A stretch of 32,658 bases of DNA from an uncultured Acidimicrobiales bacterium (GTDB lineage: Bacteria; Actinomycetota; Acidimicrobiia; Acidimicrobiales; SHLQ01): NCBI GenBank assembly GCA_905479685.1, contig CAJQNJ010000119.1, positions 1-32,658 on the forward strand, in the 5' to 3' direction. Positions 3,291 through 18,816 of this stretch are shown here, one piece after another. Both the position numbers and the translations under genes were made by a program. The notes under the pieces were generated by a model that had not been told where the DNA came from, did not search any database, and saw nothing but the letters and a program-made list of their open reading frames with translations. How positions within the stretch are numbered: the stretch's first letter is position 1; each line of letters starts with the position of its first letter.

Positions 3291-4058
3291 TCAGCGCAAT
3301 CGCTTTCGAGCGACTGCTTTCGCGAGCTCGAAGCAGTACTGGGAGTTCGTCACCAGATAGCGCTTGAACAATCGCTTGGGCTCGAGGCTCAGACGCCATA
3401 ACCACTCCAACCCGTACTTCTGCATCACGGGAGGGGGCTTCTTGAGTTGGCCAGCGTGATAGTCGAATGCGGCCCCGACTGCCATCATTGCGGCGTTGAC
3501 CGAACCCTTGTGGGCTCCGACCCATTTCTCTTGACGGGGACATCCGCGACCGACGAGCACGACGCCAGCACCTGAGTTGTTGATGCGTTCGATGTCGGCT
3601 GCGTCTTCTTCTTCTGTGGCGTCGCGGAATCGGTCGGGCTGCACATCGGAGATCACTGCGTGGGGCCATTCGTCGAGCACCGCATCGACAAATGCTTCGC
3701 AGGTTTCTGCCGTCGATCCGAAGAGGTAGATTCCGACGCCTGCGTCAGCGGCTGCTCCGCAGACCTTCCACGTCAGGTCTGGTCCGTAGACACGGTCGTT
3801 TAGACCCGAGTCGTGGAGGATGTTCATCGCCCAACGAACAGGTTGGCCGTCTGGAGTGACGAGATCGAGGTTGTTGACGACCTCACGAAATGACGGGTCG
3901 TGGACTGCTTCCATCAGGCCATGCGTGGCGAGCGCGCTCATCGCAAAGCTCTGTTTGGCCGTTCCAGCTTCGATGATCCGAACGGTCGCGTCTTCATAGT
4001 CGGTGACCGAGAGGCCCACGCCGAACACGTCGACCTTTGGTGGACCGGTCGAGAGCAT
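3291..4058 (-). CDS. WecG/TagA/CpsF family glycosyltransferase
   Basis: 255-residue glycosyltransferase (GT26 family), which transfers a sugar such as N-acetylmannosamine or its uronic acid to an undecaprenyl-linked acceptor. Family hallmarks are visible: VTPDGQPVRW (67-76) with the conserved Asp70, RVYGPDL (89-95), an FGS loop (113-115), GRGCPRQEKW (170-179), and GAAFDYHAG (195-203) before a Lys/Pro-rich stretch. The chosen ATG at 4058 overlaps the stop of the upstream epimerase by one base (TGATG), which suggests translational coupling; an in-frame start at 4085 would add nine residues but lies well inside the upstream gene. Peripheral membrane location is expected from the basic C-terminal region. 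The acceptor and sugar cannot be told from sequence alone. Confidence 0.9.
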   Translation of the reverse strand: MLSTGPPKVDVFGVGLSVTDYEDATVRIIEAGTAKQSFAMSALATHGLMEAVHDPSFREVVNNLDLVTPDGQPVRWAMNILHDSGLNDRVYGPDLTWKVCGAAADAGVGIYLFGSTAETCEAFVDAVLDEWPHAVISDVQPDRFRDATEEEDAADIERINNSGAGVVLVGRGCPRQEKWVGAHKGSVNAAMMAVGAAFDYHAGQLKKPPPVMQKYGLEWLWRLSLEPKRLFKRYLVTNSQYCFELAKAVARKRLR

Positions 4059-5140
4059 CAGGCGGTGGTCTCTTCGGAGAGCCATCGCTCAGCCATCTTG
4101 TCGTGGATCTCACCCATGATGGCTTTCAGATCGTAGGTGAACTTCCACTCTGGGTAGTGATTCTGGAAACGACGGACATCGCTGACGTACCAGATGTGAT
4201 CGCCGATGCGGTTCTCGTCGGAGTATGTCCATTCGAGTTTCTTCCCCGACAGCTCCTCGGACATCTCTATGGCCTCGAGCATGGAACAGTTGATGGCTCG
4301 ACCACCGCCGATGTTGTACACCTCAGCCACGCGCGGAGCCCGGTAGAAGTGATCGAATGCGCTGATCAGGTCTGAGGCATGAATGTTGTCTCGTACCTGC
4401 TTCGCTTTGTATCCAAAGATCGTGTACGGACGCCCAATGACCGTGCATTTGACGAGATACGCGAGAAAGCCATGCAGCTCGGCGCCCGAATGGTCTGGTC
4501 CGGTGAGGCATCCTCCGCGGAACGCTGCGGTCTTCATGTCGAAGTACCGGCCGTACTCTTGGACCAAGGCATCGGCGGCAAGCTTGGATGCGCCGAACAG
4601 ACTGTGCGTGGATTGATCGACCGACATCTCCTCGGGGATGCCGTGTTCTGCCCAGGGATGTGCTGGATCGAGCTCCCAGCGTGTCTCCAACTCGATCAGA
4701 GGCAGATGGTTCGGTGTGTCGCCATACACCTTGTTCGTCGACGTGAAGATGAACACCGCATCAGGGGCATGCTGACGCGTGGCCTCGAGCAAATTCAAGG
4801 TGCCCGTTGCGTTCACGCTGAAGTCGGTGTGCGGGTCGCGCGCAGCCCAGTCGTGTGAAGGTTGTGCGGCGGTGTGCACGATCAAGGAAATGTCGGTTCC
4901 GTATGTCCTGAAGAGTGCATCGATTGCATCGTTGTCACGGATGTCTGCGTGGACATGGCGATAGTTGTCGAATCGAGCGGTGAGGTCGTTCACAACCCAA
5001 TCCGTCGACGCTTCGGGCCCGAAGAACTCTTGGCGCATGTTGTTGTCGACGCCGACGATGACATCGGCTTCCGCCGCGAAGTGAGTCACGGCTTGTGAGC
5101 CGATGAGGCCACCCGAGCCGGTAACGATGATCACGGACAT
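4058..5140 (-). CDS. NAD-dependent epimerase, CDP-tyvelose-epimerase type
   Basis: Extended short-chain dehydrogenase of 360 residues. The Rossmann motif GSGGLIG is at 8-14 and the Asp that binds NAD ribose at about 32. [12 protein letters not shown] (133-144) is characteristic of CDP-paratose 2-epimerase (tyvelose epimerase) relatives. The active-site segment reads SLFGASK (180-186): Lys186 is present, but the usual Tyr is Phe182. I recall Phe here in a set of close relatives, so this may be a subfamily trait. The start at ATG 5140 has a good ribosome site (AGGGAG) about ten bases upstream; the frame is open further up but there overlaps the preceding gene. Role: converting a nucleotide sugar for the repeat unit. 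The exact substrate is not determinable here. Confidence 0.87.
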
Positions 5141-5165: not shown

Positions 5166-6221
5166 CTAAAACTGTAGTGGGGGTTCAGAGAACCGCAATA
5201 ATTCGTACAACCTAATGTGCTCTTTCGCGATGACCTGTACATCGAAGGGTTCGAGGTCGGGTAGCCCGCGCTCGGCGTCGAGCCACCGATCCAGCGCATC
5301 CATGTCGAACGTTGACACATCCTCTGGCACAGCGAAGACCCATTCTTCGCCCACAGCCTCTCGAAGATCGTCGGCCTGTGGCCCTTCATTCAGCACGATC
5401 GGTAGACCTCGGGGCAACGCGTAGAACGGGCCGCCAGAGTTGAACGTGTTGCGCTGCAATGAGACGAGCGCTGTCGAACTGGCGAGGACCGGCTTGAGGG
5501 CTTCGTCGTCGGCAAACCCGGGACGTATGGTGAGCCAACTCCGTTGGCTGGCGAGCGTTTGTAACTCCTCCAGTAGGTGACGATCACCAACGCCGCCAAC
5601 GACGAGAACTGGGTGCCGGTTCGTTCCGTCGTCGAGGGCGGTGACGAACTCGAGGATCCGGTGATACGGGTGAATCTGCCCAAGGATCACGAGTAGGTCA
5701 CGGTCTCGGGCTGGTGCAAGTTCGATTGGGACTTCGGGAGGGTGTGTTGGGTGCGGGATGGTCACCACCATCGAGTCGTCTGCGATCGCGCCATCCTTTC
5801 GCAGCACCTGCTCGTGACCCGGCACCAGGATGATCGTGGCGCGTGCGAGACGCTGAACCGAGCGCCGAAAAGCAGCGTCGATTGCATTCGATGTGCCATG
5901 TGGGGCGCGATTGTGGGCGGTCAACACGATCGTGTGCCTGCGGAGCCGAAAGGCGCCCACGAGCAACGCGGCCCGCACGTGCTTGAGCGCGGATGCTACG
6001 GGACTCGCGCCGCGGGATACGTGCTCAGGCCACTGGATGTGCACGATCTGATCTGGCGTTCTGAGCACGGTCGTGAGCGTCAGCGGTTCGACCGTCCATC
6101 CTTGATCCTCGATCGCTCCAACGACATCGCGAATGTATGGGCTGTTGGTTTGCTGAGGGGTAACCGACCAGAGGACGCGGCGTGTCGGCACTCGTTGACG
6201 GGCTGGATCCAGAGGAGGCAT
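5166..6221 (-). CDS. GT-B fold glycosyltransferase
   Basis: 351-residue cytoplasmic glycosyltransferase with a two-domain GT-B look. The N-terminal half has VHIQWPEH (60-67) and TAHNRAPH (101-108), typical of GumK-like and related mannosyl/glucuronosyl transferases; the C-terminal half has [16 protein letters not shown] (261-276), which replaces the usual GT4 nucleotide-sugar motif. No membrane segment. It is the first gene of a four-gene minus-strand operon and leaves only 25 bases before the epimerase. The ATG at 6221 has a G-run immediately upstream with almost no spacing, so a slightly internal start (for example GTG at codon 11) is possible. Donor and acceptor are unknown. Confidence 0.82.
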
Positions 6222-6396: not shown

Positions 6397-7899
6397 GTGC
6401 GTTTGTGGGGCTCGTTGAAGCGGATCAGTTTTTCTCTATTGGTGGTTTTGGTCATTGCCGCGACCACTGCCGGAGGGTTGACTGGCACATGGTCGGACAT
6501 TGGTCAGTCTTTTGTCTCGGTTACGGGCCGATCCGTGGTCGAACCGGGTCCCGCCCGAGTAGTTGTCGAAACTGATGGAGATGAAGTGGACGCACTCACA
6601 TCGGCGCCGGTTGCGCAGGCGGTTGTGATCCCTGTGACGAGTTCTGAAGCGCCACCCTTGACCGTGGGAACAGATGATGGTCCGATACCTTCACAACCTG
6701 ACGTGGATCAGGAGCCCGAGACCATAGTGCTCGGCACCACACTGACCACGCCCACAGTGAACGAGCCCGACTCGACAACGACGACCACGACGCAGGCCCC
6801 CACGACGACCGCGTCCACCACGACGGCAGCGCCGAGTACGACGGCAGCGGAAACACCCCTGACGACCAAGTCCCCAGCGACCAAGGCCCCGACGACGACG
6901 GCGGCTCCGGTCGACAATGGACCGGTCAAGGTCTCGAACAGTGGACACGCCAACGGCGGTGGCTTCTCGAACACCCCGATCGAAGCCGCACTGGCACAAG
7001 CCAAACCAGGGACGGTATTCGCCTTCGAGCCAGGCCAGCACAAGGCCCTCAAGGTTTCCTCGGTCAACGGCGCACAAGGCAACCCGATCGTCTTGACCGC
7101 CGCAGACAAGAACAACCGGCCGGTATTCACCGATGGCGGATACACCGCGCGTGCTGGCATCGAGGTGACCGGGTCATCCAATGTCGCGATCGCATACCTC
7201 GACGTCAGGAAGTCGATGTGGGGGATACGAGTCGAAGGCTCCTCGGGGATTGTCATCGATGCGGCCCGTGTGTCCGACATTGGCCAGGAAGGCATCCGCG
7301 TCACGCAACGTTCGTCGTGGGTCACGATTCGCAACTCGGTCATCTCGGGAACCGGGCGTCGATCCGGTACGGCGAGTGACGGACAGTCCTACTCGTTGTT
7401 CGGTGAGGGCATCTACATCGGGAGCGGCCAGGATTCGAGCGACGAAGTGCACCACATCGTGATCTCGGGGAACGATATTTCTCAGACGGGTACGGAGGCG
7501 ATCGATGTCAAAGCACCCGCCCATGATGTCGAGATCACGAAGAACGTCATCCACGACATCCAGACCGGAACCAGCGGTGCGATTGTCGTTCACCTCAAGG
7601 ATGACTACGTGGCGACGAGTCCGAACATCAGAGTCACGTACAACAAGATCTCGAACATCTCCACCAACTCTGGCCACCGCGACGGGGTGGGTGTCGTGAT
7701 CGGCTCCTCGGTCGATGTCATCGGCAACACGATTCGGAACACGGCCCACTACGGCATTCGGATAGAGGACAAGGGTTCTCAGGGCGGCAAGATCACTGTC
7801 AATATTGTCGACAACACTTTTGCATCGAATGGTCAGGGCGCCATCTGGCAGTCCGGCAACAAGGCGAAGGTCAACACCTCAGGGAACACGGGCGCCTGA
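6397..7899 (+). CDS. membrane-anchored parallel beta-helix protein (copy 1)
   Basis: 500-residue secreted protein. A short basic start is followed by one hydrophobic segment (about 10-30, signal anchor), a linker, a Thr/Ala/Pro-rich stalk (about 127-171) that looks like a glycosylated or wall-spanning spacer, and a right-handed parallel beta-helix (about 178-500) with repeated N-x-I and G-I-x-V turns. Conserved stretches shared with the gene at 11411-12874: DIGQEGIRV (294-302), GEGIY (336-340), EAIDVK (367-372), SGAIVVHL (393-400), HRDG (427-430). Such helices occur in polysaccharide lyases, hydrolases, epimerases and carbohydrate-binding surface proteins; I cannot assign a reaction. GTG 6397 is chosen because the frame upstream (from 6277) looks non-coding and a -10 box precedes this GTG. 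Its stop abuts the convergent flippase stop. Confidence 0.82.
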   Translation: MRLWGSLKRISFSLLVVLVIAATTAGGLTGTWSDIGQSFVSVTGRSVVEPGPARVVVETDGDEVDALTSAPVAQAVVIPVTSSEAPPLTVGTDDGPIPSQPDVDQEPETIVLGTTLTTPTVNEPDSTTTTTTQAPTTTASTTTAAPSTTAAETPLTTKSPATKAPTTTAAPVDNGPVKVSNSGHANGGGFSNTPIEAALAQAKPGTVFAFEPGQHKALKVSSVNGAQGNPIVLTAADKNNRPVFTDGGYTARAGIEVTGSSNVAIAYLDVRKSMWGIRVEGSSGIVIDAARVSDIGQEGIRVTQRSSWVTIRNSVISGTGRRSGTASDGQSYSLFGEGIYIGSGQDSSDEVHHIVISGNDISQTGTEAIDVKAPAHDVEITKNVIHDIQTGTSGAIVVHLKDDYVATSPNIRVTYNKISNISTNSGHRDGVGVVIGSSVDVIGNTIRNTAHYGIRIEDKGSQGGKITVNIVDNTFASNGQGAIWQSGNKAKVNTSGNTGA

Positions 7900-9159
7900 T
7901 CACTCGCTGGAGCGGTTTCCTTCTCGCCGAGCGAGAATGCTCACCGCGCCCCAGAGCAGTGCGGCGAACAGCATCTCTGCCACAAGGGTCGTCACAGCAG
8001 CGGCGCGCCAACCGTGCGTCGGGATGAACAGGATGTTGCCAACCAGGTTCACAACGGCCGTACCGAAGATGATCCAAGAGCGAACGTTGTGGTGATCAGC
8101 ACCAGTCAGCGCATTACCGGGAAAGTACTGCAGGCCCTTGGCCAGCGGAATGAAGGCCAGCCAACGGATCACGTCGACGGACTCTGCGTAGTCTGCGTCG
8201 TCGAGAATCAGGAGCACGAGCGGTGCTGCAAGGAATAGTCCGACGCCGGCGATGATTCCGTACCCGGCGGCGATGACGGTGAGCCGACGAGCGAAGGCCA
8301 TGGCTTCACGAACCGTCGACGACCCACGGCGAAAGAACTCGGCGTACGTTGCTCGAACCAACGCGATGAGTGGCACGGTGGACAGCTCGGCAATTCGGTA
8401 GCCGGGCGAGTACACCGCAGCATCGTTGGCAAGGTCATATGCGTTCAGTGCGATCTTGTCGATGTCGGTTTGGCCGCTCGATGATGTCTGCACGAAGACG
8501 AACCCAATGCCGTGCCAAAGGTCTTGTCGGTTCGGTGCTGCGAGACGGTGAGTTCCACCGAAGGTGCGGGCGACCTGAAACGAGCTGAATGCACCCCACG
8601 CCAACATGCCGACCAGAAGGAACGCCGCCCATTGTGCGAGTTGGTCATATCCGAGGAGGAAAAACGCGCCAAGAAGAGCAAGGCGAATGACTCCTCCGGT
8701 GAGATTGATGCGGAGCCCCACGTCAGAACGGTGATGCGCTTCGGTCATCATCGTCGCTGCCTGTGCGGTGTTGAATCCCACGAGTTGAGCAATGCCGAAC
8801 GCGACTACAACGTTGAGGGAAACATCAAATATCAGTGCAGAGATCGCGGTCGCGACCGCCGTGCCGAGCAGGCCGCCAATAGACGTCGCGGTGACCAGTT
8901 TGGCCCACGTCGTCGAGAACGGCAGCTCCCGCGCGACGGCGCGCACGCCAACATGATTCATCCCCCATTGGCTCACGGGTCCGAGCAAGGTCAACAGACC
9001 CAAGATCCCGACGTACCGGCCGAATTCCTCCTTGTCGAGGATCCCGGCCAACACGAAGATCGTGGCTGCGCGAGTCGCTTGAACGATCAGTTCGGCGACG
9101 AGTACGAATGCGGTGTTCTGAGCCAGTCCCTTGGTGGAACGGTCGACATCGATGCTCAC
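7900..9159 (-). CDS. Wzx-type flippase (MOP superfamily)
   Basis: 419-residue integral membrane protein with about a dozen hydrophobic segments spread along its length and the N-terminal pattern of polysaccharide-export flippases (first helix followed by GRYVGILGLLTLLGPVSQWG at about 47-66). The family moves undecaprenyl-diphosphate-linked repeat units across the cytoplasmic membrane. Its start overlaps the stop of the upstream GT2-GT4 fusion by four bases (ATGA), so the two are translationally coupled, and this is the last gene of the minus-strand run that begins at 18816. Its TGA meets the TGA of the convergent beta-helix gene as TGATCA. Specificity cannot be read from sequence. Confidence 0.88.
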   Translation of the reverse strand: MSIDVDRSTKGLAQNTAFVLVAELIVQATRAATIFVLAGILDKEEFGRYVGILGLLTLLGPVSQWGMNHVGVRAVARELPFSTTWAKLVTATSIGGLLGTAVATAISALIFDVSLNVVVAFGIAQLVGFNTAQAATMMTEAHHRSDVGLRINLTGGVIRLALLGAFFLLGYDQLAQWAAFLLVGMLAWGAFSSFQVARTFGGTHRLAAPNRQDLWHGIGFVFVQTSSSGQTDIDKIALNAYDLANDAAVYSPGYRIAELSTVPLIALVRATYAEFFRRGSSTVREAMAFARRLTVIAAGYGIIAGVGLFLAAPLVLLILDDADYAESVDVIRWLAFIPLAKGLQYFPGNALTGADHHNVRSWIIFGTAVVNLVGNILFIPTHGWRAAAVTTLVAEMLFAALLWGAVSILARREGNRSSE

Positions 9160-11306
9160 GGGTGGTTGCTCATCGCCAATGCGTCGACGACGCCACTCGC
9201 GAAGTTCTCGGCCATGCGCTCGATCGTCAGCTCGAATCCTGTCTCGACGGCGCCGTTCTGGAGAAGGGCAAGGAGAATCGGGTCGTGGAGAATTTCGGCG
9301 ACTCGATTGGCATAGTCGGTGGGTGACGGATCGCCGGAGACAATCACACCGTTCTTGCCATCGATCAGATAGTCGATCTCCGGGCTGTGGTAATCGATGT
9401 CGGTGGTGATCGTCGGCAGACCCAAAGCAAACGCATCGACAATATTGAGCCCGACCATGCCTGGCATCAGTTGTATCGACCCGGTGGCGGCCAGGCGAAG
9501 CCGGTCATCTCCATACCGCGGTCCCACGTAATGGATCCACGGAGCTGCTCTGGCAGCTCGTTCCACCATGTCGCGTTCGCTTCCTCCACCGATGATGAGC
9601 ATCTCGAAGTCCGGAATGAGACGTCGGATCTGTTCAGCGGCATCGAGGAGAAACTGGGTTCGTTTCGGCGGGTAGATCCCGCCCATGAAGACAGCAACCG
9701 GCCCCGAACCCATGCCCAGCTCGTTGCGCACGTTCGAGGCGCTGTCTGCTGGTAGCGCACGTACGACGGCTCGAATATGGGCGGTGTCTGTGGTGTTCAT
9801 GACCGATGTGACTCTGTCAGGAGGCATTCCGGCATCGATCGCGGCGCGGGCCGACAGGTCGTTGTACGCGAAGAACCAGTGCGCTCGTTCCGTCAGGCGT
9901 CGCTTCAGGCCTTCCCCTGACTGCCCTTCGAGTAGCGCCTGGAAGTTCTTCCCATGGCCCCAGAAGGCATGGCGTGTGCGCAGCGGCCGTTGGCCGTACG
10001 CCAGGACCACATTGAAGAGCTGTTTGGACGCCTGCTCGGTGATCACGAGGTCTGATCCGTACGCGACGTCGAATCCTGGTTGCCAAAGGAGAGACCGCCC
10101 TGCGATCGAGAATTCGCGAAGTGGGCGGATTTCTGCCCACGGCATCGATGCCCGATCACCCTTCGCCCGGTCTTCAGCGAGGCCTTCGGCGACGATCAGA
10201 CGTAGCTCGATGTTCTTCGATGCAAGTGTGGTGCGGAGCGCTTCGTAGAACGCAACACGATAGTGGTTCGTGTTCTTGATCAGGATCGAGACAACAGGCT
10301 GGCCAGCGTCTTGTCGCGATATCTGAGATTTGGAACGTCGTGTGAATGTCCCGGGTGACAAGGCAGCCGATGCGCCAATCTTGCCGAAGCCGGTCAGACG
10401 ACGTCCGGAGGCCACAGCAGCTCCACCTTGGCGAAACAGCGTGGCGCTGAGGGTTTGCCGGTCGCTCACACGCCGATCCCGGCGGGGCAACATCTCCTCG
10501 GTGGCAAGGAAGTTCTCCCATGTCGGTTCATCACGGCCGGCGCGGATCGCGTCCATACATTGTTTGGTGTACCGCAGACGCTCTGCGTGTTCGGACGCTC
10601 TGCTGGAGGTCACCGAACCGTCGTGGATGCGATGCGCAAAGCTGCGTCGAGGGTCCGCGAGAACGGGATGCTCGAACCCGAGACGCGTGAATGTGGCGAG
10701 ATCCATCGCGGATCCGAAACGCTCTTCGAAGCCACCGATCGAGGAGAGGAGTTCGGTCCTGTAGATCGCCGAGGGAAACACGACCTCGATCAACTCGCCT
10801 GCATCGATTGTGGCTCTCCACGCGTCGAGAGATGCGGGCCCGTAGTCCTTGTTCGTAGAGAACTTCGGATCGTCGTAGGTGCCACTGACGCGTCGGCAGA
10901 AGGAGCCGATGACGGCGGGGGTAGGAGTGGTGGACCAGAAGAGGTCGAGAAGTTTAGAAACGCGTGGTTCGAGGACGAGGTCGTCGTCGCCCATGAACGT
11001 CACGAAATCGGTGGTCGTTGCGGCAAGAGCCGTGTTGTGCGAGCCAGCGATCGTGAGTCGGGTGGGAAGCGTCTCGATCGCCATCGGGCCGTCCCACGGT
11101 TCGAGAAGTCCCTCGATGTCTTGTGCGAGCAGCGGGTCGTCGGGTCCGTTGAGAACCACACGCAACGAGACTCCAACGGGTGTGGTGTCGAGAAGGGAGC
11201 GGAGGGCTGCCTGAAGATAGCCATCTCGTCCGATGGTGCAGACACAAATCGTCAGGTCGGCAGGCACCGGAGCTCGATCGAGCAACCTGTCTTCGTTCTC
11301 TGCCAT
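9156..11306 (-). CDS. bifunctional GT2-GT4 fusion glycosyltransferase
   Basis: 716-residue protein that joins two glycosyltransferase folds. The N-terminal part (about 16-240) is GT-A/GT2: a first strand LTICVCTIGRD (18-28), an acidic cluster MGDDDL (105-110) in the place of the metal-binding DxD, and a late His. The C-terminal part (about 337-710) is GT-B/GT4: GGIYPPKR (542-549), a GGGSE loop (573-577) and GLNIVDAFALGLP (619-631). At the classical EX7E site the two glutamates read Gly616 and Asp624. The linker (about 260-335) is basic. No membrane segment. Such a protein could add two successive sugars. A 104-base gap separates it from the upstream beta-helix gene. The fusion could instead be two families with one inactive half. 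Confidence 0.86.
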   Translation of the reverse strand: MAENEDRLLDRAPVPADLTICVCTIGRDGYLQAALRSLLDTTPVGVSLRVVLNGPDDPLLAQDIEGLLEPWDGPMAIETLPTRLTIAGSHNTALAATTTDFVTFMGDDDLVLEPRVSKLLDLFWSTTPTPAVIGSFCRRVSGTYDDPKFSTNKDYGPASLDAWRATIDAGELIEVVFPSAIYRTELLSSIGGFEERFGSAMDLATFTRLGFEHPVLADPRRSFAHRIHDGSVTSSRASEHAERLRYTKQCMDAIRAGRDEPTWENFLATEEMLPRRDRRVSDRQTLSATLFRQGGAAVASGRRLTGFGKIGASAALSPGTFTRRSKSQISRQDAGQPVVSILIKNTNHYRVAFYEALRTTLASKNIELRLIVAEGLAEDRAKGDRASMPWAEIRPLREFSIAGRSLLWQPGFDVAYGSDLVITEQASKQLFNVVLAYGQRPLRTRHAFWGHGKNFQALLEGQSGEGLKRRLTERAHWFFAYNDLSARAAIDAGMPPDRVTSVMNTTDTAHIRAVVRALPADSASNVRNELGMGSGPVAVFMGGIYPPKRTQFLLDAAEQIRRLIPDFEMLIIGGGSERDMVERAARAAPWIHYVGPRYGDDRLRLAATGSIQLMPGMVGLNIVDAFALGLPTITTDIDYHSPEIDYLIDGKNGVIVSGDPSPTDYANRVAEILHDPILLALLQNGAVETGFELTIERMAENFASGVVDALAMSNHP

Positions 11307-11410
11307 TTCGTCGAGCCTCGTCGATTCCGATTCAGTAAGGGTCTACCAAGCGCCGATTCGTCGTCGACACACCCTAACTGTCTGACCAATCGGCAGGCTG
11401 CGTTCGACCT

Positions 11411-12874
11411 TCAGCTGTCGGAGTCATCTCCATGGTCACGTTCGACCGCACCGAACGTAACCGGTCCGTCTGTCGGGCGCGCATCTCCGTTCAGGTCGTC
11501 GACCACTCCCACGCTCGGGGCAGAGGACAATTCGGAAGCTGCGTCGTCTGTCAGCCGGTAGTTGCCCCGATCGGCGGCGACGTACACGTCGCCCGCAGCC
11601 TGGCGGTTCTCTTCGCCGCCGGTGCCGAGGTTGTTCCTGCTGGCGACTTGCATCCCGCGTCCCTCGGAGACCACCGAGCCAATCTCTCCGGCGTTGAGGA
11701 AGGTGTTGTGCAGTACTGACGCGATGCCGCCACTTCCACGGAGGAAAATCCCGCGGTGTTGGCAGTTGTGTAGGACGTTGTTGACGATGCGGATCTCAAC
11801 TTGGCTCACGATGCAGTTGCCATCACGGTGGGGCGAAGATCGAGTGACGTTTCGGATCACGTTGCGCTCGATATTGATGTTCGGGTTGCCATCTTGGTCG
11901 CCGTTGAGGTGAATCACGATTGCCCCAGACGTGTTCGTCACCACGTCGGACACGATGTTTCCGATGATGTCGACGTTCGTCGAAGGTCGCTTGATGTCGA
12001 TCGCCTCGTCCGTCGTGCGCATCACCCGGTTGTTGATGATCATCACCCGATCGATCACGTCAACGCCTCCGGGTGATCCGGTACCGACGTATATACCTTC
12101 GCCGTTCGCTCGACCGTTGTCGGTTCGACGGCCTGTGTCCGCCACGATGTTGCTGTCGATGCGGACGTTCGTCGAACCTGCCTTGACCCGGATCCCTTCC
12201 TGGCCGATGTCGGCAACGTCGAGTCCGCGGACCGTGATGTGGTGGGAGTTCTCGATGTACACGCCCCACAAGGCTTGACGTACTCGCATTCCGACGATCT
12301 CGACGTGCTCCGAGTCCCGAATGAGAACCCCTGCGTCTGCGCTGTATCCCTCTCCACGGAACTCGACACCGGCAGCTGCCTCGATGTGGATTGGAGCTTC
12401 CGTGGTGCCCGCAAGACCAACGATCCTCAGCGGGGGATAGGTGCCGGGTTGCAGGACGATGACTCCGCCCGGATTCAGAACCTCGAGGGCGGCCCCTAGC
12501 GTGATTCGTGCTTGCTCGGGGCTGTCTCCGGTTCGATCGTCTCCTCCATCCGGTGCCAGGTAGACAACATCGAACGACGTCGGCAGAGGTGCCGTGGTGC
12601 TGGAGCGTTCGGCTCGTGTTTCGGTGGTCGGAGCGATTGTGTCAGCTTCACGGACCGGCTCGCTACTGCTCGCACTGGAGGAGTTGAACGGGAGAGAAGA
12701 CGACGCAGAATTCTCTGGGCCTTCGGCGTCGCTGCCACACGAAGCAAGAATGACGATGGCAGCGACAACGAGGTGAAGTGATCGCGGCGCGCGTGCAGGA
12801 TCGTCGTTACCTCGTTCGAGGTCCGGTTGCAGGCTGAGCCATGCGATGCCCCGAGGGCGGAAGAAACGCAACAC
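11411..12874 (-). CDS. lipoprotein parallel beta-helix protein (copy 2)
   Basis: 487-residue secreted protein. A long basic n-region and short hydrophobic core (about 33-43) end in a lipobox, LASC, with Cys46 as the lipidated residue. A Ser/Thr-rich spacer (about 53-98) follows, then a DUF1565-like entry (VYLAPDGGDDRTGDSPEQA, about 104-122, and a VLQPGTY turn at about 140-146) and a right-handed beta-helix. It shares a series of motifs with the protein at 6397-7899 (WGVYIE, DIGQEGIRV at 222-230, GEGIY, EAID, TSGAIVIHL, HRDG) and is a paralogue. GTG 12874 is preferred over a start at 13108 because the longer version overlaps the neighbouring gene and its extra residues look non-coding. Likely role: modification or binding of the exported polysaccharide, outside the membrane. 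Reaction unknown. Confidence 0.8.
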   Translation of the reverse strand: MLRFFRPRGIAWLSLQPDLERGNDDPARAPRSLHLVVAAIVILASCGSDAEGPENSASSSLPFNSSSASSSEPVREADTIAPTTETRAERSSTTAPLPTSFDVVYLAPDGGDDRTGDSPEQARITLGAALEVLNPGGVIVLQPGTYPPLRIVGLAGTTEAPIHIEAAAGVEFRGEGYSADAGVLIRDSEHVEIVGMRVRQALWGVYIENSHHITVRGLDVADIGQEGIRVKAGSTNVRIDSNIVADTGRRTDNGRANGEGIYVGTGSPGGVDVIDRVMIINNRVMRTTDEAIDIKRPSTNVDIIGNIVSDVVTNTSGAIVIHLNGDQDGNPNINIERNVIRNVTRSSPHRDGNCIVSQVEIRIVNNVLHNCQHRGIFLRGSGGIASVLHNTFLNAGEIGSVVSEGRGMQVASRNNLGTGGEENRQAAGDVYVAADRGNYRLTDDAASELSSAPSVGVVDDLNGDARPTDGPVTFGAVERDHGDDSDS

Positions 12875-12957
12875 GAGTGGTCGACGGTACCTCGAATCGT
12901 GCGCACTGTGTGATCGGCTCGGTTTGCGATGATCCCGCTGACACCAGGTTGATCGCG

Positions 12958-14478
12958 TCAGTTCTTCAGGCTGGCGTCGCCGAAGGTATTCCCTTCGATG
13001 CGCACATTCGTTGTGCATGTGCCCGGGATCCAGGCGTGGTTCGTGCCGTTGGGGAGGTGCTGATTGTCCATCCAGACTCGGTTGCCAGTGATGACATGGT
13101 CGCGACACTGGCTGCTGTACCCGTAGTGGTTGATCGTCATTCCGACAGTGGTCTTGTGTGGAACGTTGCCGGTTCCGAGGATGGTGTTGTTCCGAACGGT
13201 GATGTGGTCACCGCCCGCCAGGTTGATACCCACGTGGCCGGGATTGATCAGCACGTTGTTCTCGGCGACGATGTACTGACTTGGACCCACCGACGAGTTC
13301 CCGTCCCCGAGAATCATTCCGGTACCCGTGGTGCTCGGGCCGCCGTTGCGCATTCGATTGCCCGAGATGCGGATGGGACTCGAGCTTGTTCCCGATGAGC
13401 TATAGAGGTTGATCATGTCTTCGTAGTCGGAGTCCCATCGGCCGCGACCTTCGATGACGTTGTTGGTGATCGTCATGTTCGATGCGCCGCGCACTCGACT
13501 GATCTGGACGGCGTTTCGTCCGGCGTCGAAGAACCGGTTGCTGTCGATCGCGATGTTTGATGAAGCGCCGTGGATTTTGATGGCTCGGTTTCCCTTGTCG
13601 CCGTCCTTCTGGCTGATGTCGCTGCGAATGTGTCTGATCGTGTTGTTTCGGATCGTGATGTTGGTTCCCGAAGCGATTTGAATGGCGTTGTTGCGGTCGC
13701 CGCCGAAACGTTCGCTCGACATGTTCTCGATGAGTGACCCTTGGATGGAGATGTTGCTGGCGTTCTCAATGTTGATGAGGCCGGTGTCGTAGTGGGAACC
13801 AACTGCCTTTTGGGTTCCGCAGTCTCGGACGGTGACGTTTCGGATCGTGATGTTTCTCACGCCAACGAGGCTGAGGCATCTTCCATTGGGATTGGAGATG
13901 ATCAGATTCTCGAGGATGACGTCGCTTTGGCCATCGAGGTTCTGGAACCCGACCGATCGACAGTTGGTTTGACAGCCAACCGAGCCACCTGGTGACGTTG
14001 TCGCCTTGGCTGGAGCCCGGGTCGTCGGGGGCGTTGTCTTGGCCGGTGCGGCGGTCGTGGCTGGCGCTGCTGTGGTGGTGGGTGTCGTGGTCGCGCGTTG
14101 TGCTGGAGCGGTGGTGGACGGGGACACCTGACCTGGTACGACTGCAGTTGCTTGCGCCTCAGATGTCGATGGCGTCGCGGTCGTCGTGGTCTGGCCGTTC
14201 GTAGCTGGCTGAGCCTGAGGAGGGTTGCGTGTTGCCGGCGGCACGCGGTCGGATTCCGAGAAGGCCAGCGCTGTCGGTGCATCCTGGATCGTCGAGGGCT
14301 CGTGGATCGACCGGCCTGGTGCTGGTTCGTAGGCAACTCGGCCTTTCGACGGCTCCACGAGTTGTCGAGCAGTCTCTTCGCCGGTTGCCACCGACGACAT
14401 GCTCTCTAGCGTGGTGGTCTCGGCACCGGGGGCGCGAAGCCAGAAGAGGGCACCGACGAGAACGATGGAGATCGCCAC
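12958..14478 (-). CDS. signal-anchored parallel beta-helix protein (copy 3)
   Basis: 506 residues from GTG 14478: a short hydrophobic segment (2-14), a spacer, a Thr/Pro/Ala-rich stalk (about 95-165), a Cys pair (169 and 173), then a right-handed beta-helix to the C-terminus made of many N-x-I-x-I-x-x-N turns. It is more distant from the other two helix proteins and lacks their DIGQEGIRV block. The chosen start leaves almost no n-region and a hydrophobic core of only 13 residues. The frame stays open for 27 codons upstream to a TGA at 14560-14562 and encodes a plausible N-terminus (FEVPEDFVIKPQHSLQVAG), but contains no ATG, GTG or TTG. The TGA lies inside the 25-bp tandem repeat, so the native start may have been lost to it. 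Possibly N-terminally damaged. Confidence 0.76.
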   Translation of the reverse strand: MAISIVLVGALFWLRAPGAETTTLESMSSVATGEETARQLVEPSKGRVAYEPAPGRSIHEPSTIQDAPTALAFSESDRVPPATRNPPQAQPATNGQTTTTATPSTSEAQATAVVPGQVSPSTTAPAQRATTTPTTTAAPATTAAPAKTTPPTTRAPAKATTSPGGSVGCQTNCRSVGFQNLDGQSDVILENLIISNPNGRCLSLVGVRNITIRNVTVRDCGTQKAVGSHYDTGLINIENASNISIQGSLIENMSSERFGGDRNNAIQIASGTNITIRNNTIRHIRSDISQKDGDKGNRAIKIHGASSNIAIDSNRFFDAGRNAVQISRVRGASNMTITNNVIEGRGRWDSDYEDMINLYSSSGTSSSPIRISGNRMRNGGPSTTGTGMILGDGNSSVGPSQYIVAENNVLINPGHVGINLAGGDHITVRNNTILGTGNVPHKTTVGMTINHYGYSSQCRDHVITGNRVWMDNQHLPNGTNHAWIPGTCTTNVRIEGNTFGDASLKN

Positions 14479-14637: not shown

Positions 14638-15969
14638 TCAGGAACGTGTCTTGACGTCGGGAGTGAACGGGCGCGGTACGCCCTTGTTGCGGGCCGCGGT
14701 CACGCATGCAACGACGAAGAAGATGAACGAGATGTCGCGGCGAACGACTCCCGCTTCGGTCAGCGAGAAGATCAGGGAATATGAGATCAAGACGATCGGT
14801 ACGAGTCCAACCGCTGTCGGCACGGCACGAATGTTGCGCGCTCCCCAGATGAGGCCGCGGAGGAAGATCCCGAGCAACAACACGGGACCCATGGGCCCCA
14901 GGTACAGCCAGGCATCGATGAACGCATTGTGTGCATGAGGTGAATCAAACTGCGCCCGAATCAGCACCTCGAACGACGCGCGATCGGTGTCCCAGAATGC
15001 GAGCCAACCGTGTCCAAACCATGGCTTGTTCGCGATCCCGTAGGTGAACGAGTCCTGCCAGAGTGGGAGGCGGCCCGTGAAGGTGCTGTCCTTGCCGAGC
15101 AACCCGGTGGCGACCACAAGGTTCGTCCCGGCGAGAGCTGTGAGTATGGAGAACACCGTGACCATCGCAACGGCGGTTGCGCCGTAGAAGGTCTTGCGGC
15201 CCCGGAAACCGAGGAACACGGCCAACAACGCGATCAAGCCGCCGGTCGCTCCGAGCGATGTTGCAGAGTCGCTTGCTATGACCTGCACCAGTGCCAGCAG
15301 AGCCAGGATCGGCCAAACAAAGAAGCTTCGACGTATTCGAGCCAAGAAGCTGAACACGACGAAACTCAGCGATGCGATTCGGCCCAGTTCGTTCTTGGTG
15401 GTGAAGACGCCACTCCATTGCGATTTTCCTTCTGTCGACACATTGATGGTGTCCAACCCAAAGTCTTGGAAGACGAAGATGAAGATGTAGTTGATGAACA
15501 GGCCGATTGCCAGACCGATACCAGCGAGATACAACATCTCCTCGAGCTGGAAACGAGAGGCGAAGTAAAGACCTACCAGCAACGTGATGATGAGCACGAT
15601 GGAAGCAGAGAGCGTCTCGCCGATGTTGACGGACCACACGGTCGAGAGCGTCGCCAGGCCGACGAGCGCGATCAGCAAAGGCTCCCTACCCGCTGCGGCA
15701 GCTGCGACATGCCAATTGCCGTTGAAGCCCAACCAGACGACGCCGAGGAATGACAAGAAGACGAGTGTGGTGACCGGACTGCCGCCCTCGACCGTCCCCG
15801 CCGATCCGTTCGACACGCGCGTGAACCACTCCATGGGGAGGGAGAACGAGAAGACGAACAACATGATCCCGCCGACGATCCGCTCGAGCATGCCCGGGCG
15901 TCGAAGAAACGGTTCCATCGATGGGGCATCGGTGATGTTCTGGACGGTTATTTCCCGGGTGGAAGTCAC
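14638..15969 (-). CDS. O-antigen ligase/polymerase family membrane protein
   Basis: 443-residue integral membrane protein with about eleven hydrophobic segments and a large extracytoplasmic loop. It belongs to the O-antigen ligase (Wzy/WaaL) superfamily: TKNELGRIASL (191-201), TFTGRLPLW (296-304), a GHGW turn (319-322) and the His motif PHAHNAF (344-350) in the loop before a Leu/Gly-rich helix. In a locus with a Wzx flippase and Wzz/BY-kinases, polymerisation of repeat units (Wzy role) is the best guess; ligation to a surface acceptor is the alternative. The start is GTG 15969, one base after the stop of the second BY-kinase, so they are coupled. The next gene downstream is separated by about 160 bases that include the tandem repeat. 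Confidence 0.87.
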   Translation of the reverse strand: MTSTREITVQNITDAPSMEPFLRRPGMLERIVGGIMLFVFSFSLPMEWFTRVSNGSAGTVEGGSPVTTLVFLSFLGVVWLGFNGNWHVAAAAAGREPLLIALVGLATLSTVWSVNIGETLSASIVLIITLLVGLYFASRFQLEEMLYLAGIGLAIGLFINYIFIFVFQDFGLDTINVSTEGKSQWSGVFTTKNELGRIASLSFVVFSFLARIRRSFFVWPILALLALVQVIASDSATSLGATGGLIALLAVFLGFRGRKTFYGATAVAMVTVFSILTALAGTNLVVATGLLGKDSTFTGRLPLWQDSFTYGIANKPWFGHGWLAFWDTDRASFEVLIRAQFDSPHAHNAFIDAWLYLGPMGPVLLLGIFLRGLIWGARNIRAVPTAVGLVPIVLISYSLIFSLTEAGVVRRDISFIFFVVACVTAARNKGVPRPFTPDVKTRS

Positions 15970-15970
15970 G

Positions 15971-17623
15971 TCACTGCGCAGACCGTGAGGCGGTGACCTT
16001 TTCGTAGGCGTATCGATCCTTGCGAAGCACCGAACCGCCGATGTCGCTGTTGTCGCGGTTCAGGATTGCGCCGACCACCGTGCCACCCGCTCGATCGATG
16101 TCCGCGCGCACTCGCAGCAGCGTGTCCGTATCGGTCCGGCTGCTGTCGACAACTATGATGACCCCATCGACTGCGGTTGCGATGCTGGACGCATCGGCAG
16201 CGCTGAGCACCGGGGGTGCATCGACGAGGATGATGTCGAACTGCTCTGCCAGCTCATCCATCAGGCTGGCGAACCGGTTTGTTGCCAGGAGCTCGCCGGG
16301 GTTGGGTGGGGGAGGACCGGCTGGAACCACGACCAGCCCGGGCGTGCCCGGAACCGAGACCATGATGTCGGTGACAGTCGGATCGGTGAGCCAGTCACCG
16401 AGCCCTTTCTGTGTGGAGGGAATTCCGAGCACCTTTTCAAGGGTGGGGCGCCGAAGGTCCGCGTTCACGAGGCAGACCTTCGTCTCGCCCTGAGCGAGTG
16501 CAATCGCCAGATTGGCCGCGGTGGTCGACTTGCCCTCGGCTGGTCGAGCGCTCGTGATGAGGAAGGATTCGGCATCACGTGTCGAACCGAGGAACTGGAC
16601 CGACGAACGAAGGCGCCGGAATGCCTCTCGCGAGCGTTGGACCTTGGCAGATCGACCTCCCGAGAGCATCACGATTGCCGATGAACCGCTGCGATAGGCC
16701 ATGCCGAACGATGGAATCGAGGCCAGAACACTTGTGCCGAGCGCGAGTTCGACATCGCTGGACTCTCGAGCCGTTCGATCGAGGCGGTGCAGGACGAAGG
16801 CCAACGCTGCGCCCATACCCAAGCCGAGTATCAAACTCAGCGCCCGAATGATGTTGTCAGAAAAGCCAGTCGGAACGGTGGGCAGATCGGCCGACTGCAA
16901 AACTTCAGCTGGTGCCGCTCGAGTGTTCAGCACAATTTCGGCTTCGGTAATTTGGTTTGTCCTCTCTCGGAGGTCTCTGGAGAGGTCACTGTGCAACGAT
17001 CGATTGGAATTGACCTGCGCGTTGGCCGCCGACGCCCCATTGCTTCCCTCGACCTGCGCGTCGGCCTTTCTGACGAGGACGACGAGTTCTGCGTCGAGCT
17101 TGTCGATTTCCTCATTGATTGTGTCAACCGTCTGTGACAGTTCTTCGATCAACGCACGGTCCACTTCGACGCCTTCCGAGACGCGCTTTGCCACATAATT
17201 GCGGGCAAAGGAGTTCACCGTGTCCTGCGCGACAGCGGGATCGATGTGGACGAATGTCAGTTCCAAGGTGTCACTCTTGTCGACGAAGGTCACATCGAGG
17301 TCACGCAGCAACAGCAACGGTGAGGTCGTGAGTCCGAGGTCGGCGGCAACAAGGCTGGCTACCGCATTCGAGTCGACGACCTCGCGCTCGCGTTCGAGGG
17401 CAGGCGTTTCGAGCTTGCCCTGAACCGATCCTGCATTCGTCGCATTGACGAGGACCTTCGCAGACGCTGCCCAGGTATTTTCGCGGGTGGTCGTGAACAG
17501 CACGCCAGCGCCGAGACCGAGGGCCGCGCACAGGACGATCAGCCACTTGCGTTGCCGGATCGCGGCCAGGTAGTCCTCGAGCCCCGGCGTCTCTTTCGCC
17601 TGGGATCCAGATTCATACATCAT
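15971..17623 (-). CDS. Wzz/BY-kinase, polysaccharide co-polymerase (copy 2)
   Basis: 550-residue inner-membrane protein with a Wzz domain followed by a tyrosine-kinase domain. TM1 about 27-45, an extracytoplasmic helical region (about 150-235) with long coiled-coil character, a PxxP segment before TM2 (about 258-278), Walker A ARPAEGKS (359-366), Walker A' VNADLRRP (386-393) and Walker B IILVDAPP (464-471). The kinase motifs are closer to the textbook than in the copy at 1635-3179. The tail has Tyr538 and Tyr540 in another YAY motif. The role is control of chain length together with the ligase/polymerase gene that starts one base after its stop. ATG 17623 has a GGAG about ten bases upstream; the alternative ATG at 17620 is less well spaced. 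Confidence 0.93.
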   Translation of the reverse strand: MMYESGSQAKETPGLEDYLAAIRQRKWLIVLCAALGLGAGVLFTTTRENTWAASAKVLVNATNAGSVQGKLETPALEREREVVDSNAVASLVAADLGLTTSPLLLLRDLDVTFVDKSDTLELTFVHIDPAVAQDTVNSFARNYVAKRVSEGVEVDRALIEELSQTVDTINEEIDKLDAELVVLVRKADAQVEGSNGASAANAQVNSNRSLHSDLSRDLRERTNQITEAEIVLNTRAAPAEVLQSADLPTVPTGFSDNIIRALSLILGLGMGAALAFVLHRLDRTARESSDVELALGTSVLASIPSFGMAYRSGSSAIVMLSGGRSAKVQRSREAFRRLRSSVQFLGSTRDAESFLITSARPAEGKSTTAANLAIALAQGETKVCLVNADLRRPTLEKVLGIPSTQKGLGDWLTDPTVTDIMVSVPGTPGLVVVPAGPPPPNPGELLATNRFASLMDELAEQFDIILVDAPPVLSAADASSIATAVDGVIIVVDSSRTDTDTLLRVRADIDRAGGTVVGAILNRDNSDIGGSVLRKDRYAYEKVTASRSAQ

Positions 17624-17670: not shown

Positions 17671-18816
17671 TCATTGAGGGGGGCATGGGCCCACGTCGGC
17701 GATGAGTGGACGGTGGTCGGAGAATCGGGTGTCTTCGGACAATGCATTGGCGGTGCACAGATCGTCGCTGATGAGAATGTGATCGAGTCGCGCGAAGATC
17801 AGTGACCACGGGAGCGGACGATCCGCTGTCGGGACCGCCCAGCCGCTGTGGCGCATGCCATCGTTCATCTCCCGCGTGAGCGTGCGATATCCCTGGCCTC
17901 GATCGACGGTGTTGAAGTCTCCGAGCATGACAACGGGCAGGATTTCTGCTTCCACGGCATTCGTGATCGCTTCCACGAGCTCGATGTGGCCGGAGGCTGT
18001 GAGCTGGTACGGGCCTTCGCCGGGGATCGGGCGGGGAATGTGAAGCGCATAGACGATCACCGGTCCATCGTCGGAGGCGACCTCGACTCGAAACCCCGGG
18101 AGGCCGCCGGGAAAGACGTCAGCTATCGGATCTTCCAGAACCTGAAGCTCGAACTTCGAGTAGATCCCGATGCTCGGCAACCCGTTGCGTCGATAGGTGT
18201 CTCCGTCGGGTACCAGGCCCTGCTCGTTCTGCTGTTGACGCTCGAGCGAAAGAATGTCGGCGTGCGCGTTTGGAAAGCGGCCACGGAACTCCGCATCGTG
18301 CGCTTCGGTCAGCTCGATCCCGACGAGCAGGTCGGGATCCCGTCGGTTCACGAAGTATCCCGAATCGTTGTCGCTGAAGAAGTAGAGGCCAGCGTTGAGG
18401 GTCGCCGCTCGGAACGATGACTCGGGCGCTGGTCCGTTCGTGGGGCGCCACGGCAAGATCACCGCAACCACGAAGAACAGAACGAGTGATATCAGAACGG
18501 ACAGCCAACGGAGACTCCGGCGCAACACCGCGGCGAAGAACGAAATAGCAACGCCAAAAAGAATCACGACGGGCAACAGGATGGCCACGAACTCCATCAC
18601 GGGGTGAACGGAGCGGAACACGAACCACAGCCAGGGCGTAATCGGAGCGAGCCACATCAGACCCCGGCGGCTCATCCGAAAAGCGCGTTCAGTGGAAGCA
18701 TCCATTTCCACAGGCGCTGGTGTCTCGTTGGCCGAGGGGACATCGATGCGCAGATCGGCCGCGGTGCTCACAGTCTCTGAGCGTATGGTCGATGACGGAT
18801 CTTGGGAATGAGTCAT
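17671..18816 (-). CDS. membrane-bound EEP-family (endo/exonuclease/phosphatase) protein
   Basis: 381 residues: a cytoplasmic N-terminal tail (1-52), three hydrophobic segments (about 53-69, 72-95, 100-122) and an endonuclease/exonuclease/phosphatase domain (about 133-378). The metal and catalytic residues are in place: Asn141 (RAATLNAG), Glu168 (GIELTE), His259 (ALHIPRP), the GDFNT motif (299-303), Asp345-His346 and SDHRP (366-370). With three membrane passes the domain probably lies outside the cytoplasm, which argues for a phosphodiesterase or phosphatase acting on lipid-linked or surface material rather than a nuclease of cellular DNA; this is inference. It heads the minus-strand run that continues with the BY-kinase 47 bases on. 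The aceE stop lies 79 bases upstream. Confidence 0.83.
   Translation of the reverse strand: MTHSQDPSSTIRSETVSTAADLRIDVPSANETPAPVEMDASTERAFRMSRRGLMWLAPITPWLWFVFRSVHPVMEFVAILLPVVILFGVAISFFAAVLRRSLRWLSVLISLVLFFVVAVILPWRPTNGPAPESSFRAATLNAGLYFFSDNDSGYFVNRRDPDLLVGIELTEAHDAEFRGRFPNAHADILSLERQQQNEQGLVPDGDTYRRNGLPSIGIYSKFELQVLEDPIADVFPGGLPGFRVEVASDDGPVIVYALHIPRPIPGEGPYQLTASGHIELVEAITNAVEAEILPVVMLGDFNTVDRGQGYRTLTREMNDGMRHSGWAVPTADRPLPWSLIFARLDHILISDDLCTANALSEDTRFSDHRPLIADVGPCPPQ

Follow-up and report, generated by a model that had tools for sequence, protein, structure and literature searches.

What are three beta-helix proteins doing among the genes for a surface polysaccharide? The window, by which we mean the whole 32,658 nucleotide stretch analysed here, makes up an entire contig (G000:C119) of an Acidimicrobiales MAG of 3.2 Mb that is 85% complete. 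A first-pass annotation had described the three proteins, here named BH1, BH2 and BH3, as interleaved with a Wzx flippase, a GT2-GT4 fusion and a Wzy. The genes lie where it placed them, and each of the three products scores above the cut-off for Pfam Beta_helix (2.7e-19, 8e-12 and 1e-11, respectively). The family searches also agree with the names given to the neighbours: a Wzx (Polysacc_synt), the GT2+GT4 fusion, a Wzy (Wzy_C) and a Wzz/tyrosine-kinase protein. The genes of the locus are as follows.

3291–4085, minus strand: WecG/TagA-family glycosyltransferase (TIGR00696, above cut-off)
4058–5140, minus strand: sugar-nucleotide epimerase of the SDR family (E=1.9e-36 to its nearest solved structure, CDP-tyvelose 2-epimerase)
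5166–6221, minus strand: glycosyltransferase-like gene, co-conserved with the locus, with no NCBIfam family match
6397–7899, plus strand: BH1, with an anchor (6436–6477), a Thr-rich stalk (~6775–6909) and a PL31-like beta-helix head (~6970–7896)
7900–9159, minus strand: Wzx flippase (Polysacc_synt, 3.8e-10)
9156–11306, minus strand: GT2-GT4 fusion glycosyltransferase, kept in relatives
11411–12874, minus strand: BH2, a lipoprotein with a lipobox (12737–12778), a short Ser/Thr stalk (12575–12703) and a PL31-like beta-helix head
12958–14478, minus strand: BH3, with an N-terminal anchor (14437–14475), a long Thr/Pro/Ala stalk (13984–14190) and a beta-helix head of a different family (12958–13986)
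14638–15969, minus strand: Wzy polymerase/ligase (Wzy_C, 8e-13)
15971–17623, minus strand: Wzz/BY-kinase chain-length protein

With a flippase, Wzy_C, a Wzz/BY-kinase and glycosyltransferases together, this is a Wzx/Wzy polysaccharide locus. The SDR gene is co-conserved with it and is ~90% identical in same-genus relatives. At 17671–18816, the window also encodes a membrane-anchored endonuclease/exonuclease/phosphatase-fold protein, which in relatives is kept between AceE and the BY-kinase. In four related loci (L066, L067, L068 and L070), BH2/BH3 and the GT2-GT4 fusion are separated by an extra GT4 gene, which shares ~60% identity with the fusion's own GT4 half and has no counterpart in the window (11306–11411).

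Each beta-helix protein was said to have its own tether followed by a Ser/Thr-rich stretch, and the sequences bear this out, with a TM anchor in BH1, a lipobox in BH2 and a TM anchor in BH3. BH1 begins at a GTG that has an equivalent in its orthologues, and this start is followed by the anchor SLLVVLVIAATTAGG, which is common to the orthologues, and by the Thr-rich stalk. The lipobox of BH2 is LASC. In the window, BH2 has only a GTG start and an unusually long n-region, and its orthologues have clear lipoboxes (LLAAC, IAAAC, FVAGC and LATSC). A longer mechanical ORF that would start BH2 at 13108 overlaps BH3 and was rejected. Two related proteins of other lineages (L089 BH3 and L091x) have a hydrophobic segment at the C-terminus, which suggests that tethering is preserved in more than one way. 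BH2 orthologues from two genera (L066, L067 and L069) have a long Ser/Thr/Pro C-terminal tail with a shared terminal motif of two Cys followed by WAPFL or WAPLL, possibly a sorting or cell-wall signal. Tail and motif are missing from the BH2 proteins of the window and G573.

BH1 and BH2 share 35% identity over 305 aa (E=2e-45), and are indeed the paralogues with shared blocks that they had been taken for. When they were used to query the PDB with phmmer, 6KFN was the sole match of BH1 (E=1.4e-6) and the best match of BH2 (E=1e-11), and a profile of 11 relatives found 6KFN at E=1e-18. 6KFN is PsAly, an alginate lyase listed as PL31 (PMC8618178). The catalytic residues of PsAly are Tyr184 and Lys221, with the Y184F and K221A variants lacking detectable activity, and its first cation is held by Glu181, Glu216 and Asp219 (PMC6796002). 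All five residues are present in both BH1 and BH2, where the alignment puts them in two short blocks of each protein.

7402–7416, plus strand: GEGIY of BH1, equivalents of Glu181 (cation) and Tyr184 (catalytic)
7495–7512, plus strand: EAIDVK of BH1, equivalents of Glu216 and Asp219 (cation) and Lys221 (catalytic)
12089–12103, minus strand: GEGIY of BH2, equivalents of Glu181 and Tyr184
11990–12007, minus strand: EAIDIK of BH2, equivalents of Glu216, Asp219 and Lys221

The acidic blocks of the pair, earlier suggested to be catalytic, thus correspond to the catalytic and cation site of PsAly. The five residues are invariant in the close set of 11 sequences. A genome-wide scan supplied 112 homologues for alignment, and Tyr and Glu181 were each found in 112/112, counts that are biased upward because GEGIY is one of the scan's two search patterns. 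The other three positions lie outside those patterns; Lys was found in 110/112, the Glu216 position was occupied by 92 Glu and 19 Gln, and the Asp219 position by 90 Asp and 21 Glu. A NosD (copper-binding) identity was rejected, as the NCBIfam match was weak (20.5 bits against a cut-off of 300).

Sequence homology to PL31 extends over the catalytic domain of both proteins. However, Lys128, His154 and Arg156 of PsAly, which PMC6796002 describes as fully conserved in its PL31 set, are aligned with Trp, Arg and either Lys (BH2) or Thr (BH1), respectively. Because these three residues are replaced, we call BH1 and BH2 PL31-like and not PL31; their substrate therefore probably differs from that of PL31, and lyase chemistry may have been lost. 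The brown-algal lyase SjAly keeps the five residues and lacks His154 and Arg156. In the Asp250/Lys252 region the alignment is unreliable, and by eye SGAIVxHL sets a His near Lys252. A tree placed 18 window-type sequences apart from 42 others, including PL31 proper, with support of 100/98, and on these sequences the window clade is the sister of PL31 proper.

The AF2 model of BH2 (51 sequences; pLDDT 83.8, pTM 0.86) had 6KFN as its top Foldseek match (9e-11), and VIA aligned the two with Z 31.8 and an rmsd of 2.2 A over 276 residues. The PL31 fold, a right-handed beta-helix with a cleft on the sheet PB1, is seen in this model and is predicted for BH1 by its 35% identity. Other beta-helix CAZymes reach similar VIA Z scores (29 for the epimerase/lyase 8ja4 and 28.8 for AlgE), and the fold alone therefore cannot select PL31, whereas the sequence does. 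In the DSSP string of the model, DIGQEGIRV, GEGIY, EAIDIK, SGAIVIHL and HRDG/QHRGI either precede PB1 strands of consecutive coils or form them. The shared blocks thus sit on one beta-sheet of the predicted helix and are not mere structural turns spread round it. Polar residues conserved in at least 10 of 11 sequences were enriched on PB1, with strands assigned by hand from the same string (11/16 vs 19/55, Fisher p=0.016); for strictly invariant residues the enrichment was not significant (p=0.11). The enrichment in the model is modest, and is in the direction foreseen when the shared D, E and H residues were proposed to lie on one face.

A shared fold also suits C5-epimerases, which would invert uronates in the finished chain as AlgG and AlgE do, tuning gel strength and surface retention. 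AlgG, AlgE4/6 and 8ja4 align with the BH2 model at VIA Z 26–29, and in alginate loci the epimerase is encoded within the biosynthetic operon. We nevertheless consider epimerases unlikely, as the nearest sequence relative of the pair, which has the Tyr/Lys/cation site in common with it, is a lyase, and neither AlgG nor AlgE was among the matches of the PDB sequence searches. That lyases and C5-epimerases share the beta-helix fold does count against a firm lyase call.

BH3, initially described as a more distant third paralogue, is better treated as a family of its own, since its match to the pair (E ~1e-4) is generic beta-helix similarity only. It had no match among PDB sequences at E<0.01. The fold matches of its AF2 model (5 sequences; pLDDT 81.6, pTM 0.87) were near-tied between PfbA, NosD, PL6, AlgE/AlgG and tailspikes, the best being the adhesin PfbA (Z 29.4), and BH3 is for this reason given no enzyme class. 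The most conserved acidic block of its head is a candidate active site.

13408–13440, minus strand: RWDSDYEDMIN of BH3

The E and D of the ED pair are invariant in 11/11 homologues, in which further invariant residues include Arg134, Arg157, Asp228 and His251. Homologues of BH3 are rare, found in 6/19 genomes of the family and in 2/396 of a phylum sample, one of the two being this genome. Paralogues lie outside the polysaccharide locus, both in this genome (G000:C6) and in others of the genus, and the paralogues tested carry CBM60 modules (L164, and L165 with three). Searches of plasmids gave no match to BH3, and no viral contig with a BH3 relative was found. The BH3 head is probably carbohydrate-active.

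The beta-helices could instead be non-catalytic lectins or surface-retention factors, binding the polymer, holding it at the wall or acting as adhesins. Tethers and stalks suit retention, and the best structural match of BH3 is an adhesin, near-tied as it is with many enzymes. However, PL31 catalytic residues conserved almost completely across phyla would not be expected of a mere binder, an argument that is weaker for BH3, and we regard this explanation as improbable.

A scan profile from a two-sequence alignment returned no matches, while one from an 11-sequence alignment returned 78 loci; the named relatives from the genome scan were mostly Acidimicrobiales MAGs. Linkage of such beta-helix genes to Wzx/Wzy loci, part of the initial interpretation, recurs in other genomes. 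The locus is carried by five relatives of two genera, with the order AceE-EEP-BYK-Wzy-heads-GT4-GT2GT4-Wzx-head-GT-SDR-WecG conserved in G567, G568, G570 and G573; in G556, which belongs to another genus, it is rearranged. An Actinomycetes MAG (L091) has two PL31-like genes together with separate GT2 and GT4 genes, Wzx, Wzy, BYK, WecG and SDR. Of 79 loci with PL31-like genes, 7 include a window-type Wzx and/or Wzy and 59 include none of the markers tested. As most PL31 relatives are not so linked, we conclude that linkage to biosynthesis is a property of the window clade. In Cryobacterium (L105, L116, L121, L128, L130, L135–L137, L150 and L157), PL31-like genes, often two in tandem, have a BY-kinase homologue less than 10 kb away, and possibly represent a second, independent link between PL31 relatives and polysaccharide synthesis. 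A phage origin was rejected, as PHROGs gave no match and none of 50,697 phage records matched BH2; the PL31-like gene of one viral contig groups with PL31 proper in the tree.

The head beside the flippase is exchanged on a fixed anchor. The opposite-strand slot behind Wzx encodes a PL31-like protein in three genomes (G000, G568 and G570) and a BH3-type protein (BH3b) in two (G567 and G573). Across both types the N-terminal anchor and leader are homologous, that of window BH1 matching the BH3b N-termini of G567 (48% over 56 aa, E=5e-14) and G573 (41% over 71 aa, E=2e-13), while the heads of BH1 and BH3b are not homologous (23–27%, E ~1e-3). Later head types were found near Wzx in further genomes, though their count is descriptive only, because their profiles were built from the same loci. 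Beta-helix proteins of a third type, many with a lipobox and stalk, neighbour Wzx in G557, G558, G559, G560 and G566, and a second G559 locus has two PL14-like proteins, of which one passes the Pfam cut-off. Near Wzx, G564 has an apiosidase-like lipoprotein and beta-helix genes, G565 a stalked pair matching none of the named head types, and G563 a beta-helix ORF that is truncated where the contig ends. The stalked PL14-like pair in the G559 EPS locus lies at L213:4138–5676 and 9466–10749, and this locus also encodes an acyltransferase-SGNH protein. Elsewhere (L071:8892–11141), a PL31-like beta-helix is fused to an apiosidase-like glycosidase domain (PF13204).

In 12 other flippase stretches of the same genomes (two of which overlap), used as controls, no PL31, BH3, third-type or PL14-like heads were found, and there was one apiosidase-like gene. 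Among Pfam families matched by at least two members of the 92 control ORFs, none was a beta-helix family. According to the Pfam tally, several of the control loci (L223–L234) carry GH9-like and sulfotransferase genes. We tentatively propose a polymorphic system for tailoring surface glycans, in which anchor and stalk stay fixed beside the flippase and heads are swapped between lineages to match the polymer of the locus; the case for it is, in our judgement, slightly short of even. If head exchange does track polymer structure, heads could predict surface-glycan chemistry from sequence and be a source of new polysaccharide-specific lyases.

That the pair are lyases for scavenging or self-defence, acting on foreign alginate-like polysaccharide and present in the locus by chance, would agree with the 59/79 PL31-like loci lacking a biosynthesis marker and with the degradative role of PsAly, but is very unlikely given the permanent membrane tethers, a placement inside the Wzx/Wzy locus that is conserved in several genera, and the lack of such genes in other flippase loci of the same genomes.

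The answer that we lean towards, with moderate confidence, is that BH1 and BH2 are tethered extracytoplasmic enzymes that use a PL31-type site on the polymer of the locus, presumed to contain uronate, and that BH3 is an unrelated, probably carbohydrate-active head. A lipid carrier would serve for assembly of the polymer, Wzx would flip it and Wzy would polymerise it; the tethered heads would then encounter it outside the membrane, where their stalks would let them extend across the cell wall. Glu/Glu/Asp would bind a cation that holds a uronic acid unit via its carboxylate, and Lys as base and Tyr as acid would act at C5/O4, leading to cleavage (a lyase) or, less likely, C5-epimerisation. In this way the head set may trim, release or remodel the surface polymer. 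The sequences and models themselves show the homology and predicted fold, the retained active-site residues, the tethers, the linkage and the exchange of heads, and from these the secretion topology, the uronate content of the polymer, the activity, the substrate and the role are deduced. The locus showed no gene for making uronate. This genome has two nucleotide-sugar dehydrogenases, which agrees with uronate in the polymer, although such enzymes are near-universal. Another possibility is a dideoxy- or 2-epimerised sugar, given the likeness of the co-conserved SDR to CDP-tyvelose 2-epimerase. With these findings, the uncharacterised beta-helix proteins that uncultured actinobacteria encode in Wzx/Wzy loci gain a testable active site, and a PL31-sister subfamily tied to polymer synthesis rather than digestion is defined.

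The first-pass annotation knew of no described system like this one, a view that the analysis does not support, as RbmB, WceF and AlgG are known examples of beta-helix enzymes in EPS loci and PsAly is a characterised relative of the pair. RbmB of Vibrio cholerae, encoded in the rbm cluster, cleaves Vibrio polysaccharide, and is thus a beta-helix lyase encoded with matrix-polysaccharide genes that acts on the cell's own Wzx/Wzy-type polymer (PMC11637428). The BH2 model aligns with it at VIA Z 28, but RbmB is a single enzyme, and the PDB search with the pair did not return it as a sequence match. Nor is it known to be tethered. In Pantoea stewartii, the stewartan cluster encodes WceF, a beta-helix EPS-modifying hydrolase (PMC7949094). 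WceF differs in being a trimeric tailspike-like hydrolase that is not PL31-like. RbmB and WceF are thus precedents, and the principle of placing a beta-helix enzyme within an EPS locus is known. The alginate operon encodes an epimerase, AlgG, and a lyase, AlgL, for its own polymer. AlgG matches the fold of the BH2 model (VIA Z 26), but AlgG and AlgL are periplasmic, lack a stalk and belong to a synthase-dependent pathway of Gram-negative bacteria. The proposed swapping of heads beside Wzx can be likened to that of depolymerase domains in phage tailspikes. A search of the literature, covering open-licence papers only, found none that joins PL31 with exopolysaccharide biosynthesis. The closest known relative is PsAly from Paenibacillus sp. 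FPU-7, which has in common with the pair the right-handed beta-helix and the Tyr184/Lys221 and Glu181/Glu216/Asp219 site (E=1e-11 for BH2). In contrast to PsAly, BH1 and BH2 are tethered and stalked, are encoded in a biosynthetic locus, lack Lys128, His154 and Arg156, and branch outside PL31 proper.
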